Source: Bacteroidia bacterium (lineage in GTDB: Bacteria; Bacteroidota; Bacteroidia; Flavobacteriales; Flavobacteriaceae). From it: a DNA stretch of 64,000 nucleotides. Made by a program: the position numbers and the translations under genes. The DNA lies in assembly GCA_030427585.1 (NCBI GenBank), contig JAUIBW010000014.1, positions 1 to 64,000 of the forward strand. The letters run 5' to 3'. Shown piece by piece: positions 57,429-64,000 of the stretch. Under the pieces are notes generated by a model that was not told the origin of the DNA, did no database searches, and saw only the letters and a list, made by a program, of their open reading frames with translations. How positions within the stretch are numbered: the first letter of the stretch is position 1; each line of letters begins with the position of its first letter.

Positions 57429-58640
57429 TTATTTGTTATTTTCTAATAATGCCATATAGAACCCGTCATATCCCGATTGGTGCGCAAGTATTTTTTTGTC
57501 TTTAACCAGAGTGAAATTACTTCCTGTTTCTTTAGAAAGAAAGTTCTTTACCTGATTCTGATTTTCAGAAGGTAAAATAGAACAGGTTGCATATACCAAT
57601 TTACCTCCCGGTTTTACCATTTTAGAATATTGCTCTAATATTTCGGCTTGTGTATGTCTAATTTTATCTAAAAACTCAGGTTGCAATTTCCATTTAGCAT
57701 CTGGGTTTCGTCGTAAAACTCCCAAACCACTGCATGGGGCATCGATAAGAACACGATCTGCTTTACCGTGTAGCTTTTTGATATCTTTTGTGCTTTCAAT
57801 GATTCTGGTTTCGATATTATGGGCACCATCTCTACGAGCTCTTCTTTTAAGCTCTTTAAGTTTATTACCATAAATATCCATAGCAATAACCTGTCCTTTA
57901 TTTTGCATTAATGCTGCTAAATGAAGGCTTTTACCACCTGCACCTGCGCAGGTATCCACAACGCGTTGCCCCGGCTGTACTTCTAAAAAATCGGCTACCA
58001 ATTGAGAAGAAGCATCCTGTACTTCAAATAATCCATTTTTGAATGCTTTTGTGGTAAAGACATTAATTCTTTCGATAAGTCGAAGTGCGTTTGGATATCC
58101 TTTAATAAATTCGGTATCGATATTTTCGTCTTCTAATAGACTTCTAAGTTTTTCTCTTGATGTTTTTAAAGTATTTGCACGAAGAATTACGGGAGCCTGC
58201 TCATTAAGTGCATTAATTTCTTTGTCCCACAGTTTACCAAGTTCTTGTTCTCCTAATTGATCCATCCAATCGGGAATAGATTCTTTAAATTTTCTTATTT
58301 TACTTAATTCATCAAAACGTCCTTTGATACGACGAGTAGGTGTAGGGCCAATTTGTTTCCAATCGGGTAAGGAAATCCCCCTTAGCGTAGCCCACACCGC
58401 AAAAACCCTCCATAGGTTCTCTCTAGAGAAAGGTTCTTTTACTTCAGCTATTTCGGTATATAGGCGTTTCCATCTTACAATTTCATATACGGTTTCTGCA
58501 ATAAAACTACGATCACGCGATCCCCATCTTTTGTCTCGTTTCAGTAATTTCTGAACCACTTTATCTGCATAACTTCCTTCATTAAATATTTCGTGTAATC
58601 CATCTATAACAGCAAAGACAAGATTTCTATGTAAACGCAT
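57429..58640 (-). CDS. rsmB: RsmB/NOP-family rRNA cytosine-C5 methyltransferase
   Basis: A 403-aa protein from MRLHRNLVFAVIDGLHEIF (58640; an ATG at 58664 would add eight residues). The N-terminal NusB-like helices are followed by the SAM-binding motif VVDTCAGAGGKSLHLAALM, IDAPCSGLGVLRRNPDAKWK (motif IV with one cysteine) and LVYATCSILPSENQNQV (motif VI with the catalytic cysteine). The family makes m5C967 in 16S rRNA, at the ribosome. Convergent or tandem partners give no further hint. RsmB versus another NOP member is not fully certain. Confidence 0.8.
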   Translation of the reverse strand: MRLHRNLVFAVIDGLHEIFNEGSYADKVVQKLLKRDKRWGSRDRSFIAETVYEIVRWKRLYTEIAEVKEPFSRENLWRVFAVWATLRGISLPDWKQIGPTPTRRIKGRFDELSKIRKFKESIPDWMDQLGEQELGKLWDKEINALNEQAPVILRANTLKTSREKLRSLLEDENIDTEFIKGYPNALRLIERINVFTTKAFKNGLFEVQDASSQLVADFLEVQPGQRVVDTCAGAGGKSLHLAALMQNKGQVIAMDIYGNKLKELKRRARRDGAHNIETRIIESTKDIKKLHGKADRVLIDAPCSGLGVLRRNPDAKWKLQPEFLDKIRHTQAEILEQYSKMVKPGGKLVYATCSILPSENQNQVKNFLSKETGSNFTLVKDKKILAHQSGYDGFYMALLENNK

Positions 58641-58724
58641 TGTATTATTTTTTAAGGTGTGCAAAGGTAGACCTTTGTGATCAAATACTATTATATTTGA
58701 CTATAATTATTGATATTACAACCT

Positions 58725-60948: not shown

Positions 60949-61497
60949 TTAGTCTTTTTTTAAAAACTCTTCAATTTTTTTTGAGGCTAAATGATATGAA
61001 GCTTTTAATGCTCCTTCACTGGTTTCTAAAATTTCTGACATCTCTCTGTATTTTAGCTCCTGAAAATATTTCATATTAAAAACCTGTTGTTGTTTTTGCG
61101 GTAGTGTGGCTATGGCCTTTTGCAACTCTAATTGTATTTGATCTCCTTCATAATATACATCTGCTTCGAGATTTTGGGTTAACTGCAAACTTAACTCTTC
61201 ATTGCTAATATTATATTTTTTTGCTTTTTGATTAAGAAAAGTAATAGACTCATTCGTTGCTATGCGATACAACCAGGTGTATAATTTACTATCTCCTTTA
61301 AATTTTTTTATATTCTTATACACTTTAATAAACACATTTTGTAATATATCATCTGTATCATCATGATTTTTTACCATATTCCTGATATGCCAATAAAGCC
61401 GTTGTTGATATATAGTAACAAGCTTACCGAAAGCAATATTTACATGCTCTTCTGATTGTAAGGTAATAAGTAGTTCTTGTTCTTCTTGAGTGTTCAA
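60949..61497 (-). CDS. ECF-type RNA polymerase sigma factor
   Basis: A 182-aa protein from a TTG at 61497 (MNTQEEQELLITLQSEEHVN); an earlier TTG at 61527 would add ten hydrophobic residues. Region 2 (YWHIRNMVKNHDDTDDILQN, TWLYRIATNESITFL) and region 4 (ELQKAIATLPQKQQQVFNMK, REMSEILETSEGALKASYHL) are intact. It drives an operon with the membrane protein and the CpxP/Spy-like protein. It is divergent from the four small-RNA genes, so the shared upstream region may contain regulatory sites for both. Confidence 0.9.
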   Translation of the reverse strand: MNTQEEQELLITLQSEEHVNIAFGKLVTIYQQRLYWHIRNMVKNHDDTDDILQNVFIKVYKNIKKFKGDSKLYTWLYRIATNESITFLNQKAKKYNISNEELSLQLTQNLEADVYYEGDQIQLELQKAIATLPQKQQQVFNMKYFQELKYREMSEILETSEGALKASYHLASKKIEEFLKKD

Positions 61498-61672
61498 AAG
61501 TAAAATTAGTTTTATTGAAAAGATCAACTATTTGACCCTTAATACTACTATATGACTAATGTACATAAAAAAGGTTTAATTAATTTAAAAATATTATTTT
61601 GTAGGATTTTTGTAGGAATAAATGTTAAAAAACATGATTATTTACTTTTTTTATAGATAAAATGCATTTTTA

Positions 61673-61703
61673 TTTGGTGAATTGAAAATAATTACTATCT
61701 TTA
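61673..61703 (+). promoter_or_regulatory. Promoter of small RNA copy 1
   Basis: TTTG (61673-61676), 19 bases, TATCTTTA (61696-61703). It fits the Bacteroidota housekeeping promoter. ATAAAAT lies ~12 bases further upstream, as in the other copies. Confidence 0.75.
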
Positions 61704-61708
61704 CAGTG

Positions 61709-61838
61709 TAATTAATTATTGAGTTCTTTCATTTCCCCCAAGATGAAAGTTTTTATAAAAGTGAGTTTTAATTTTAGAGTAAGCCCCTAAATTAAGATGA
61801 TTTGTGTGAAGAAAAAGAGTGCGAAAGCACTCTTTTTT
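61709..61838 (+). ncRNA. Small RNA, copy 1
   Basis: Expected ~130-nt transcript. CTTTCAT (61726-61732) and ATGAAAG (61743-61749) form a hairpin that exposes TTCCCCCAAG; a second C-rich stretch (AAGCCCC) follows at about 61780-61788. The 3' end is the terminator AAAGAGTGC-GAAA-GCACTC plus TTTTTT (61814-61838). The ends are inferred from the promoter and terminator. No known RNA family was recognised. Confidence 0.75.
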
Positions 61839-61966
61839 ATGTTTTATACTTTTATAGTTTAAGTTAAGTTATATTTTATAAATGTAAGTAAAAGACTACA
61901 AAATTATTATTTTTATTTATTTTTTAAAGTTTAAATACATTATTTTTGGATAAAATGAACTTTTTA

Positions 61967-61997
61967 TTTGGTAGATTAAAAATAATTACTATCTTTA
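61967..61997 (+). promoter_or_regulatory. Promoter of small RNA copy 2
   Basis: TTTG (61967-61970), 19 bases, TATCTTTA (61990-61997), identical boxes to copy 1. Confidence 0.75.
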
Positions 61998-62002
61998 CAG
62001 TG

Positions 62003-62132
62003 TAATAATGATTGAGTTCTTTCATTTCCCCCAAGATGAAAGTTTTTATAAAAGTGAGTTTTAATTTTAGAGTAAGCCCCTAAATTAAGATGATTTGTGT
62101 GAAGAGAAAGAGTGCGAAAGCACTCTTTTTTT
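62003..62132 (+). ncRNA. Small RNA, copy 2
   Basis: Same layout as copy 1: CTTTCAT/ATGAAAG hairpin with C5 loop, AAGCCCC, and terminator at 62107-62132. It differs from copy 1 by an A-to-G change in AAGAGAAAG before the terminator and by small changes near the 5' end. Confidence 0.75.
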
Positions 62133-62247
62133 CTATTTTCTATTTATGTTATAAAATTAAAATTGTAAGTTAAATACTACAAATATTATAGTTTAATTTG
62201 AATTGTAATGTTAAAAAACATAATTATTGGATAAAATGCATTTTTTA

Positions 62248-62278
62248 TTTGGTGGATTAAAAATAATTGCTATCTTTA
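62248..62278 (+). promoter_or_regulatory. Promoter of small RNA copy 3
   Basis: TTTG (62248-62251), 19 bases, TATCTTTA (62271-62278). Confidence 0.75.
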
Positions 62279-62283
62279 CAGTG

Positions 62284-62412
62284 TAATAATGATTGAGTTC
62301 TTTCATTTCCCCCAAGATGAAAGTTTTTATAAAAGTGAGTTTTAATTTTAGAATAAGCCCCTAAATTAAGATGATTTGTGTGAAGAGAAAGAGTGCAAAA
62401 GCACTCTTTTTT
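62284..62412 (+). ncRNA. Small RNA, copy 3
   Basis: Same layout; the terminator loop is AAAA in place of GAAA, with the stem GAGTGC/GCACTC unchanged (62388-62412). The C-rich hairpin is identical to copies 1 and 2. Confidence 0.75.
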
Positions 62413-62560
62413 CTGTTTCATACCGTTGATAGCCTTTATTTGATGAAAATGTATTATTTATTTAATTAATATTTTGTAAGTTTTATACTACAAAAATTAT
62501 TAATAATTTCTAGTTAACACTGATGAAAAGTGTTTTTTATAGATAAAATTCAACTTTTTA

Positions 62561-62592
62561 TTTGTGTGTACCGGATTTTTGTAGTATATTTA
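62561..62592 (+). promoter_or_regulatory. Promoter of small RNA copy 4
   Basis: TTTG (62561-62564), 20 bases, TATATTTA (62585-62592). The spacer sequence is different from the other three, but boxes and distance are kept; this argues that the promoter is under selection. Confidence 0.7.
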
Positions 62593-62597
62593 CACCA

Positions 62598-62729
62598 TAA
62601 TTAAAGAAAGTTAGTCTTTCTATCCCCCCAAGATGGAAGATATTAATAAGAGTGAGTTTTAATTTTAGAATAAGCCCCTAAATTAAGATGATTTGTGTGA
62701 AGAAAAAGAGTGCGAAAGCACTCTTTTTT
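62598..62729 (+). ncRNA. Small RNA, copy 4 (diverged)
   Basis: The 5' part differs strongly, yet a hairpin is still formed (TCTTTCTAT 62615-62623 with ATGGAAGA 62633-62640, one bulge), again exposing a run of six C. From GTGAGTTTTAATTTTAGAAT onward it matches copy 3. The terminator is at 62705-62729. Transcription would run toward the convergent ABC transporter gene. Confidence 0.7.
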
Positions 62730-62760
62730 ATTTATATAGTTACTATTACCGAAGATTTGC

Positions 62761-64000
62761 CTATTCTAATGATTGCATATTAACCAACTTTTGATAGATA
62801 CCATCTTTAAAAATAAGCTCGTCGTGTGTTCCTTGTTCAACAATTTTTCCTTTTTGCATTACAACGATTAAATCTGAATTTTGTATTGTAGATAGCCTAT
62901 GAGCAATTACTATACTTGTTCTATTTTTCATCATGTTTTCTAATGCAGATTGTACCAATCGTTCACTTTCGGTATCTAAGGCAGAAGTGGCTTCATCCAG
63001 AATCATAATCGGAGGATTTTTTAATACTGCACGAGCTATAGATAATCGTTGTTTCTGTCCACCACTAATCTTATTACCGCTATCCCCTATATTAGTTTCA
63101 ATACCAGCCGGTAAATCTTTTACAAATTCCCAGGCATTGGCAATTTTTAAAGCTTTTATAATTTCTTCGTCCGATGCCGTAGGATCTCCAACCAGTAAAT
63201 TGTTTTTTATAGACTCATTAAACAAAATAGAGTCCTGGGTAACCAATCCCATTAAATCTCGTAGAGAATGTTTGGTGAGATCTTTGATATCTACGTCATC
63301 TATCTTTATGCTTCCTTTGTTTACATCATAAAAACGAGTAACCAGATTGGCGATAGTAGATTTGCCACTACCAGACTGACCAACCAGGGCAACAGAACTA
63401 CCTTTGGGTACTTTTAAAGAAAAATTATTTAGAACATACTCATCTTCATACTTAAAAGAGATATTTTCTATACTAATATCAGAAGTAAATTCTTTTTTCT
63501 CTTTTGCATCCGGATGATCCTGTAGAGGAGAGGTGGTATTTAATATTTCGAGTACACGCTCTGCAGCTGCATTACCTTTTTTAACTCCATAATTGGCTTT
63601 TGAAATCGCCTTAGCAGGAGTTAAAATGTTATATGCTAAACCGATATAGGCTAAAAACATTTCTGATTCTAAGGAACCATCTATAAAAACAAGTCTTCCA
63701 CCATACCATAATAATACAGAGATAACACAAATACCAAGGAATTCACTTGTTGGTGATGCTAGATTCTGCCTGTTTAATAAGGTGTTCGAATAACTGAAAA
63801 ACCTTTTAGTAGATTGCTTAAACTTTTTTCCAAAAATCCCTTCAGCATTAAACCCTTTAATTACTTTTAATCCGCCAAGAGTTTCTTCAACAATAGATAG
63901 AAAAAAACCTTGTTCTTGTTGAACTTTGTCAGAATGCTTTTTCAGTGTTTTACCAATTAATGAAATTAAAAACCCTGAGATCGGGATAAAAATAAATACA
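62761..64000 (-). CDS. ABC transporter, fused permease and ATPase (MsbA-like), 5' part outside the window
   Basis: The frame is open from 62761 to the window edge (~413 codons). The visible part holds the end of the membrane domain (LSIVEETLGGLKVIKGFNAE, LLWYGGRLVFIDGS, FLAYIGLAYNILTPAKAI) and the complete ATPase: Walker A GQSGSGKST, Q-loop VTQDSILF, signature SGGQKQRLSIARA, Walker B IMILDEATSALD, and H-loop IAHRLST. It is a half-size exporter of the MsbA/LmrA group, which moves lipids or drugs across the inner membrane. The visible ATG at 63660 is internal. Lipid A-core export (msbA) is one possibility. Confidence 0.9.
   Translation of the reverse strand, partial: VFIFIPISGFLISLIGKTLKKHSDKVQQEQGFFLSIVEETLGGLKVIKGFNAEGIFGKKFKQSTKRFFSYSNTLLNRQNLASPTSEFLGICVISVLLWYGGRLVFIDGSLESEMFLAYIGLAYNILTPAKAISKANYGVKKGNAAAERVLEILNTTSPLQDHPDAKEKKEFTSDISIENISFKYEDEYVLNNFSLKVPKGSSVALVGQSGSGKSTIANLVTRFYDVNKGSIKIDDVDIKDLTKHSLRDLMGLVTQDSILFNESIKNNLLVGDPTASDEEIIKALKIANAWEFVKDLPAGIETNIGDSGNKISGGQKQRLSIARAVLKNPPIMILDEATSALDTESERLVQSALENMMKNRTSIVIAHRLSTIQNSDLIVVMQKGKIVEQGTHDELIFKDGIYQKLVNMQSLE

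Follow-up and report, generated by a model that had tools for sequence, protein, structure and literature searches.

Introduction

In Listeria, redundant UCCC sites of the small RNA (sRNA) LhrC, located in loop A, in a single-stranded stretch and in the terminator loop, bind an mRNA; all five copies require a two-component system, and the pairing of LhrC with lapB covers the Shine-Dalgarno site, as set out in the available part of that description (PMC4132741). Within the Bacteroidota, the FopS sRNAs of Bacteroides thetaiotaomicron comprise 14 members at several loci, each of about 65-70 nt with a seed near the 5' end, and are bound by RbpB, according to the accessible portion of the report (PMC11697453). 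In Flavobacterium psychrophilum, two protease mRNAs reach their normal levels only with the sRNA Rfp18, and pairing with mRNAs is predicted for its third stem-loop, as stated in an excerpt of the source paper (PMC9723704).

Here, we analyse a window of 64,000 nt (contig JAUIBW010000014.1) from a bacterium whose genus, by inference, is Aquimarina, and which carries four near-identical sRNA units in tandem (61719-62731, + strand). Flavobacteriaceae make up a large share of marine and freshwater bacteria, and their regulation at the RNA level is little known. Flavobacteria rarely use Shine-Dalgarno sites, and the usual explanation of C-rich loops is that they pair with such sites. C-rich loops that persist where Shine-Dalgarno sites are rare would thus need a partner of another kind. 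No paper on an Aquimarina sRNA was found in the open-licence literature, judged by titles and the starts of abstracts.

Results

Four tandem units with two 5' subtypes

The array lies between two genes of the - strand that serve as synteny markers: an ECF sigma-factor gene (60949-61527; Pfam Sigma70_r2 and Sigma70_r4_2), which is syntenic in relatives, and an ABC-transporter gene that runs off the window (62761-63999; Pfam ABC_tran and ABC_membrane). Counted from hairpin 1 to the terminator, the four copies occupy 61719-61840, 62012-62133, 62293-62414 and 62610-62731, all on the + strand, and score 147.6, 145.4, 145.5 and 135.7 bits, respectively, with our model R1; the transcript of copy 1 would start at about 61709. 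Each copy is predicted to fold into a first hairpin with a CCCCC or CCCCCC loop (hairpin 1; 61726-61749, 62019-62042, 62300-62323 and 62614-62641) and a second hairpin with AAGCCCC. The latter (61766-61797 in copy 1) and its AAGCCCC belong to a 51-nt core, located at 61761-61811, 62054-62104, 62335-62385 and 62652-62702. A terminator scan returned four sites, one for each copy (61811-61838, 62103-62132, 62385-62412 and 62702-62729), against a mean of 0.1 in shuffled sequences, and the fold z-scores of the four copies are -5.55, -5.43, -4.51 and -4.21.

Bacteroidota promoters carry TTTG near -33. All four units have a promoter of this housekeeping kind, with TTTG, a spacer of 19-20 and TAnnTTTA: TTTG-19-TATCTTTA precedes copies 1-3 (61673-61703, 61967-61997 and 62248-62278) and TTTG-20-TATATTTA precedes copy 4 (62561-62592). 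The final base is A and not the G of TAnnTTTG, the Bacteroidota -7 box given in the available excerpt of PMC9723704. A sigma-70 scan, whose consensus is that of E. coli, did not match the array promoters.

Copy 4 is a separate 5' subtype, with another promoter and hairpin 1 on the same core. As a direct-repeat family (D2, 119 nt), the remaining copies are 97, 97 and 86% identical to copy 1. Over promoter and hairpin 1, copies 1-3 are mutually 94-98% identical and copy 4 is only 58-60% identical to them, while core and terminator keep 96-99% identity across all four. The original prediction had described four units with a promoter, a C-run hairpin, AAGCCCC and a terminator, a hairpin in copy 4 with both arms altered but still pairing, and a 15-codon frame in copies 1-3; sequence, predicted folds and terminator scan agree with it on the units, sequence and fold on the copy 4 hairpin, and the frame is present in the sequence.

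Conservation within Aquimarina

A DNA search with copy 1 matched 65 of the 66 genus genomes, giving several matches (2-11) in 51 and a single match in 14; the remaining genome gave none. A second search, of 16 genomes whose matches were few or weaker, returned at least one in each. A 24-letter core pattern occurs in 84 stretches of named genome contigs, 83 of them from Aquimarina and one from an uncultured Flavobacteriaceae bacterium. The usual neighbours are found somewhere in 49 of these 84 stretches and are not seen in 35, some of which are cut short; other sites of genus copies include a FecR-type locus and gaps adjoining DUF456, DUF58, Band_7 and lipocalin-like genes. In 12 one-copy genomes (L433-L444), neither flanking gene was found within up to 1.5 kb on either side, some stretches being shorter, and hairpin 1 is altered or unclear. 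The core-bearing RNA of four of them (L433, L434, L438 and L439) lies near a gene resembling, by eye, the one at 57429-58664 of the window, and not in the sigma-ABC gap. Model R1 with strict filters matched 2/249 family genomes, both of the same genus.

Five near relatives (L009, L010, L011, L013 and L014) share the copy-4 subtype, in six copies whose 5' part is 88-97% identical to copy 4 and 59-65% identical to copies 1-3; by this comparison, the subtype predates these species.

A frame starting in hairpin 1 was found in 104/110 genus copies, some copies being cut by locus ends, and gives 45 different peptides, of which the two commonest, both of 15 residues, account for 28/104. An upstream ATG is present in 76 genus copies, with many lengths, including an 18-residue frame in some. 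Conservation peaks in the core, across frames. We rejected the peptide-coding reading on these grounds: the peptides differ and the frame is not conserved. Double changes occur at only 6/34 pairs of the genus alignment because the sequences are so alike.

A shorter RNA in the same gap of other genera

In a sample of 100 family genomes, one per genus and our own included, 87 have the sigma gene at an E-value of at most 1e-30; the best locus of each of the 86 other genomes was examined. The ABC gene lies within 1000 nt and in the same orientation in 70 of them; the other 16, in which it was not found or was more than 1000 nt distant, were excluded from the count. Among the 70 syntenic gaps, 41 contain a C-loop hairpin (at least 6 pairs, a C-run loop, sRNA strand), against an average of 1.5 (at most 6) in 200 dinucleotide shuffles, the loop pattern behind this number having been widened after inspection of the data; the strict CCCCAA loop gives 37/70, against a mean of 0.1 and a maximum of 2. 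The 41 include one gap whose hairpin resembles another terminator (L251) and leave out one with a shorter C-loop stem (L171). All of them fall among the 47 gaps of at least 230 nt and none among the 23 shorter ones, which account for most of the 29 gaps without a hairpin. On the opposite strand, 10/70 gaps have a hairpin, and eight of these are G-loop terminators. A rescan of the 16 excluded loci found a hairpin of the C-loop kind in L179 and dissimilar hairpins in L229, L271 and L273. In many sister genera, CCCAA or CCCCAA occurs in both hairpin 1 and the terminator loop.

Model R2, built from the short RNAs, matched six genera of the order sample, five of which had not been used in building it (E-values of 2.5e-12 to 5.1e-7 in those five), and every match lies between the sigma and ABC genes. 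These are 6 of 296 genomes of the order, with 16 candidates scored per genome, and therefore we claim no absence from R2. Its best match in the Aquimarina array has an E-value of 2, and three unrelated places of the window score better (0.026-0.048). As R2 does not pick out the Aquimarina copies, their kinship with the short RNA is argued from place, promoter, repeats and loop. In one genus (g128, probably Flavobacterium by inference), no ABC gene was found beside the sigma gene in 8/8 genomes, and no C-loop hairpin was found on the sRNA strand in the 900 nt upstream in any of the eight.

The loop is invariant and the stem covaries

We extracted 42 units, two of them hand-placed; L171 and L251 were not extracted, and three G-loop units were left out of the alignment (A3). 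In the 39 aligned units, no run other than CCCC is invariant, and AA comes next to it, on its 3' side, in at least 90%. Hairpin 1 is paired in 93.5% of cells, against 77.1% in shuffles and 29-74% with slid partners, although the paired percentage is biased upward, the structure being drawn from the same sequences, and related rows inflate the contrast with shuffles. For both reasons the safer measure is the count of pairs changed on both sides, which is 9/9 (4.4 in shuffles), with 78 doubly changed cells (18.6 in shuffles). Folding returned the drawn structure for five sister units and for two G-loop terminators.

An RNA function of the array units, as had been predicted, is strongly supported at the sequence level, because the core is conserved genus-wide, the frame is not, and the stems covary in relatives.

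Direct repeats upstream of the promoters

Before each window copy lie two direct-repeat half sites (61636-61666, 61929-61959, 62210-62240 and 62522-62552): a downstream one, GATAAAAT, and a degenerate partner exactly 20 bp upstream. In the other genera, 37 of the 41 C-loop loci have GAYnAA direct repeats ahead of the hairpin, against 0-2 loci in 50 shuffles, with half sites spaced by 19-21 bp (20 or 21 in 41/43 pairs). A fuller repeat pattern occurs 20 times in 18/100 family genomes, 0 times in its reversed control and 0 times in our own genome. Eight of the 20 occurrences are the sRNA locus, and the others stand before a CAP-like lipoprotein gene (two genomes) or near further genes, as judged by eye. 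In our own genome, a wider motif of the upstream element matched 6 places, including two within the array, and its control matched 7.

The repeat pair was also seen near lipoprotein and other genes in L197, L198, L202, L204, L205, L207, L208, L209, L210, L215 and L216, and a regulator with a wider regulon may therefore bind it. In L211, at about 1500-1620, the leader of a CAP-like lipoprotein gene has its own CCCCAA-loop hairpin behind the same direct repeats. A spacing of two helical turns is a habit of LytTR-type regulators; our search of open-licence papers for LytTR literature found nothing.

A neighbouring RNA with a GGGG loop

Eight of the 70 loci (L191, L196, L233, L236, L241, L254, L256 and L261) have GCGGGGGC in a terminator, which folds with a GGGG tetraloop in 8/8; downstream of it lie a -7-like box and then a C-loop hairpin. 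In these two-unit loci, the GGGG terminator loop of the first RNA is complementary to the C-loops alongside. A G precedes CCCC in 14/15 C-loops of the two-unit loci and in 6/33 elsewhere, so that GGGGC is able to pair with GCCCC. The eight loci are probably related, and hence not independent events.

Candidate targets

Gene starts were taken from a simple ORF caller, here and in the hairpin sample below. TTGGGG, looked for at -25 to +5 of the starts of 1350 genes (1.66 Mb, a third of the genome), was found at two and is not enriched, with the 14 other arrangements of its letters giving 0-3 matches in the same regions. Both genes resemble sensor kinases by eye, one a LytS-type kinase and the other a TPR kinase. 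Among the closest matches only (15 and 18 orthologs, respectively), GGGG precedes the LytS-type kinase gene in 9 of the 14 with a usable start, the fifteenth (L383) having none, and TTGGGG precedes the TPR kinase gene in 4/18, where the usual sequence is TTGAGGG. Conservation is partial, and the two kinases therefore stay leads. In the seven closest LytS-type orthologs (L369-L375), TTTGGGGAA stands directly 5' of the histidine-kinase start codon, as a candidate target. In most of the 18 TPR histidine-kinase orthologs (L399-L416), the start codon lies at GAGGGATG or GGGGGATG, with CATCCC some 20 nt further downstream; the two elements could form a fold that covers the start codon.

The complement of the second loop (TTAGGGGCTTA), with at most 1 mismatch, gave 60 matches, four of them the array, against 97 in the reversed control, and its two exact sites outside the array both lie within reading frames; with fewer matches than the control, targeting through this sequence was rejected. 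In a 464-kb sample of the genome, CCCCAA hairpins number 13, four of them in the array.

Comparison with known RNA families

At gathering score, Rfam 15 (including Flavo-1 and 6S) gave no match in the window, in 20 of the first 29 loci from sister genera and in 7 additional genus loci. Lax matches in the window reach at most 21.8 bits, the cut-offs of the families concerned ranging from 43 to 80.4 bits. The strongest lax match overall, to MicX on the sRNA strand of sister locus L219 (E-value 0.0049, 28.8 bits against a cut-off of 75), is taken for chance. Membership of an Rfam family was rejected, since the lax matches fall far below the cut-offs. A phage or viral origin was rejected as well, with no match in phage records or viral contigs.

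Discussion

Sequence comparison defines a non-coding sRNA family of Flavobacteriaceae with its own predicted promoters and terminators. In the other genera read, the RNA is short and in most cases a single copy, and in Aquimarina it forms tandem arrays with an added 51-nt core. The family is conserved and apparently undescribed; that no known family would be recognised had been predicted, and both the Rfam searches at gathering score and the searches of open-licence literature bear this out. The original prediction had also proposed a search of related genomes and named the lack of the C-loop in relatives as a ground for dropping it: the unit is present nearly genus-wide and the C-loop is kept in many relatives, so that this ground falls away. 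The finding is real and larger than was then stated, since, as read from the sequences, the direct repeats and the shorter RNA in the sigma/ABC gap of other genera are additions to it; the mode of action is what we infer below.

The reading that we favour, and consider somewhat better than an even bet, is that these are activator-controlled trans-acting sRNAs whose C-rich loops pair with G-rich RNA, in the manner of LhrC or FopS. It draws on the matches across the genus, the gaps with C-loop hairpins, the R2 matches in five further genera, the covariation, the invariant CCCC, the direct repeats, the lack of a conserved frame, the GGGG-loop neighbours and the analogy with LhrC. Against it count the lack of TTGGGG enrichment at the 1350 gene starts, the second-loop complements that do not exceed their control, the partial conservation of both kinase candidates, the C-loop hairpin in the L211 leader, the failure of R2 to pick out the Aquimarina copies and the 29 of 70 gaps in which no hairpin was seen. 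An activator would bind both direct repeats, about two helical turns apart, and recruit the housekeeping RNA polymerase. The exposed C-rich loops, with CCCCAA in hairpin 1 and often again in the terminator loop, and AAGCCCC in the Aquimarina core, would initiate base pairs with target RNAs at G-rich stretches, most of them close to the start of translation, and reduce the translation of these RNAs. Tandem copies would raise the dose, and the two 5' subtypes would permit separate tuning with the core unchanged. In one group of genera, the neighbouring RNA with a GGGG terminator loop may serve as a sponge.

The main rival is protein sequestration, in which the CCCCAA hairpins are decoys for an RNA-binding protein whose mRNA targets share the C-loop. 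We regard it as unlikely, though it accounts for a loop that alone is invariant while the stems drift, for tandem copies and more than one C-loop in each RNA (the terminator loop being one of them in many genera), and for the C-loop hairpin in the L211 mRNA leader, which a protein-binding model predicts. Against it, the GGGG-loop partner beside the C-loop RNAs in eight loci favours RNA-RNA pairing, CCCCAA hairpins are scarce in the genome sample, where the array supplies four of them, and the conservation of the Aquimarina core far exceeds a loop motif. It is improbable that the RNA is a divergent form of Rfp18, which is likewise a structured flavobacterial sRNA conserved beyond the species with a stem-loop predicted to pair with mRNAs, in the accessible part of its description (PMC9723704); against it, the RNA was not found at the sigma locus in eight genomes of the probable Flavobacterium.

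Two further readings dispense with an sRNA altogether. A DNA repeat, structural or mobile, that yields no RNA, such as a spreading promoter-terminator cassette, would fit the 35 core-bearing stretches in which the usual neighbours are not seen, some of them cut short, but we deem it very improbable in view of the compensatory changes in the stems, the retention of promoter and terminator, the syntenic copy across genera and the lack of any phage or viral match. That the units are mRNAs for a peptide of 15-18 residues is hardly credible: the 15-codon frame of copies 1-3, the two commonest peptides and the 18-residue frames speak for it, yet the 104 copies encode 45 peptides, many shortened by indels, and conservation is highest in the core, across frames.

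It is tempting to extend the pairing reading, although we hold the extension to be doubtful. RNAs with interchangeable stems and a fixed CCCCAA loop would be met by adjacent sponges with a fixed GGGG loop, and the same activator would also drive mRNAs for surface lipoproteins, at least one of them with a C-loop in its leader. If true, this would be regulation by loop-to-loop contact in bacteria that seldom use Shine-Dalgarno pairing. Within the family, the sRNA is conserved, its locus is defined and its loop is fixed; it has a likely activator site, and one group also has a likely RNA antagonist.

Several described systems share features with this locus. CsrB and RsmZ, whose GGA hairpins are decoy sites for CsrA, resemble it in an invariant loop motif, drifting stems and repeats within and between RNAs, but the invariant letters here are CCCC, with AA in at least 90%, and not GGA. 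Rfp18 is a structured sRNA of the same bacterial family that is conserved between species, as the available excerpt has it (PMC9723704). FopS, in the portion of its description at hand (PMC11697453), likewise consists of paralogous Bacteroidota sRNAs with housekeeping-type promoters and a shared seed, R1, which GibS has as well, whereas the present RNAs form tandem arrays with C-loops in hairpins. LhrC1-5 of Listeria monocytogenes are multicopy sRNAs with redundant C-rich sites, placed under one two-component system and pairing with mRNA in the part of the work available to us. Multiple copies per genome are likewise seen here (51/66 genus genomes with 2-11 matches), and C-rich loops that include the terminator loop are found in many sister genera; the window copies differ in having no such terminator loop, their second C-site lying in the core. 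The two systems belong to different phyla, Rfam gathering scores, the one measure applied, reveal no kinship in sequence, and nothing in the available descriptions of LhrC corresponds to the 51-nt core or to the GGGG-loop partner. In its logic, LhrC is the closest of the described systems.
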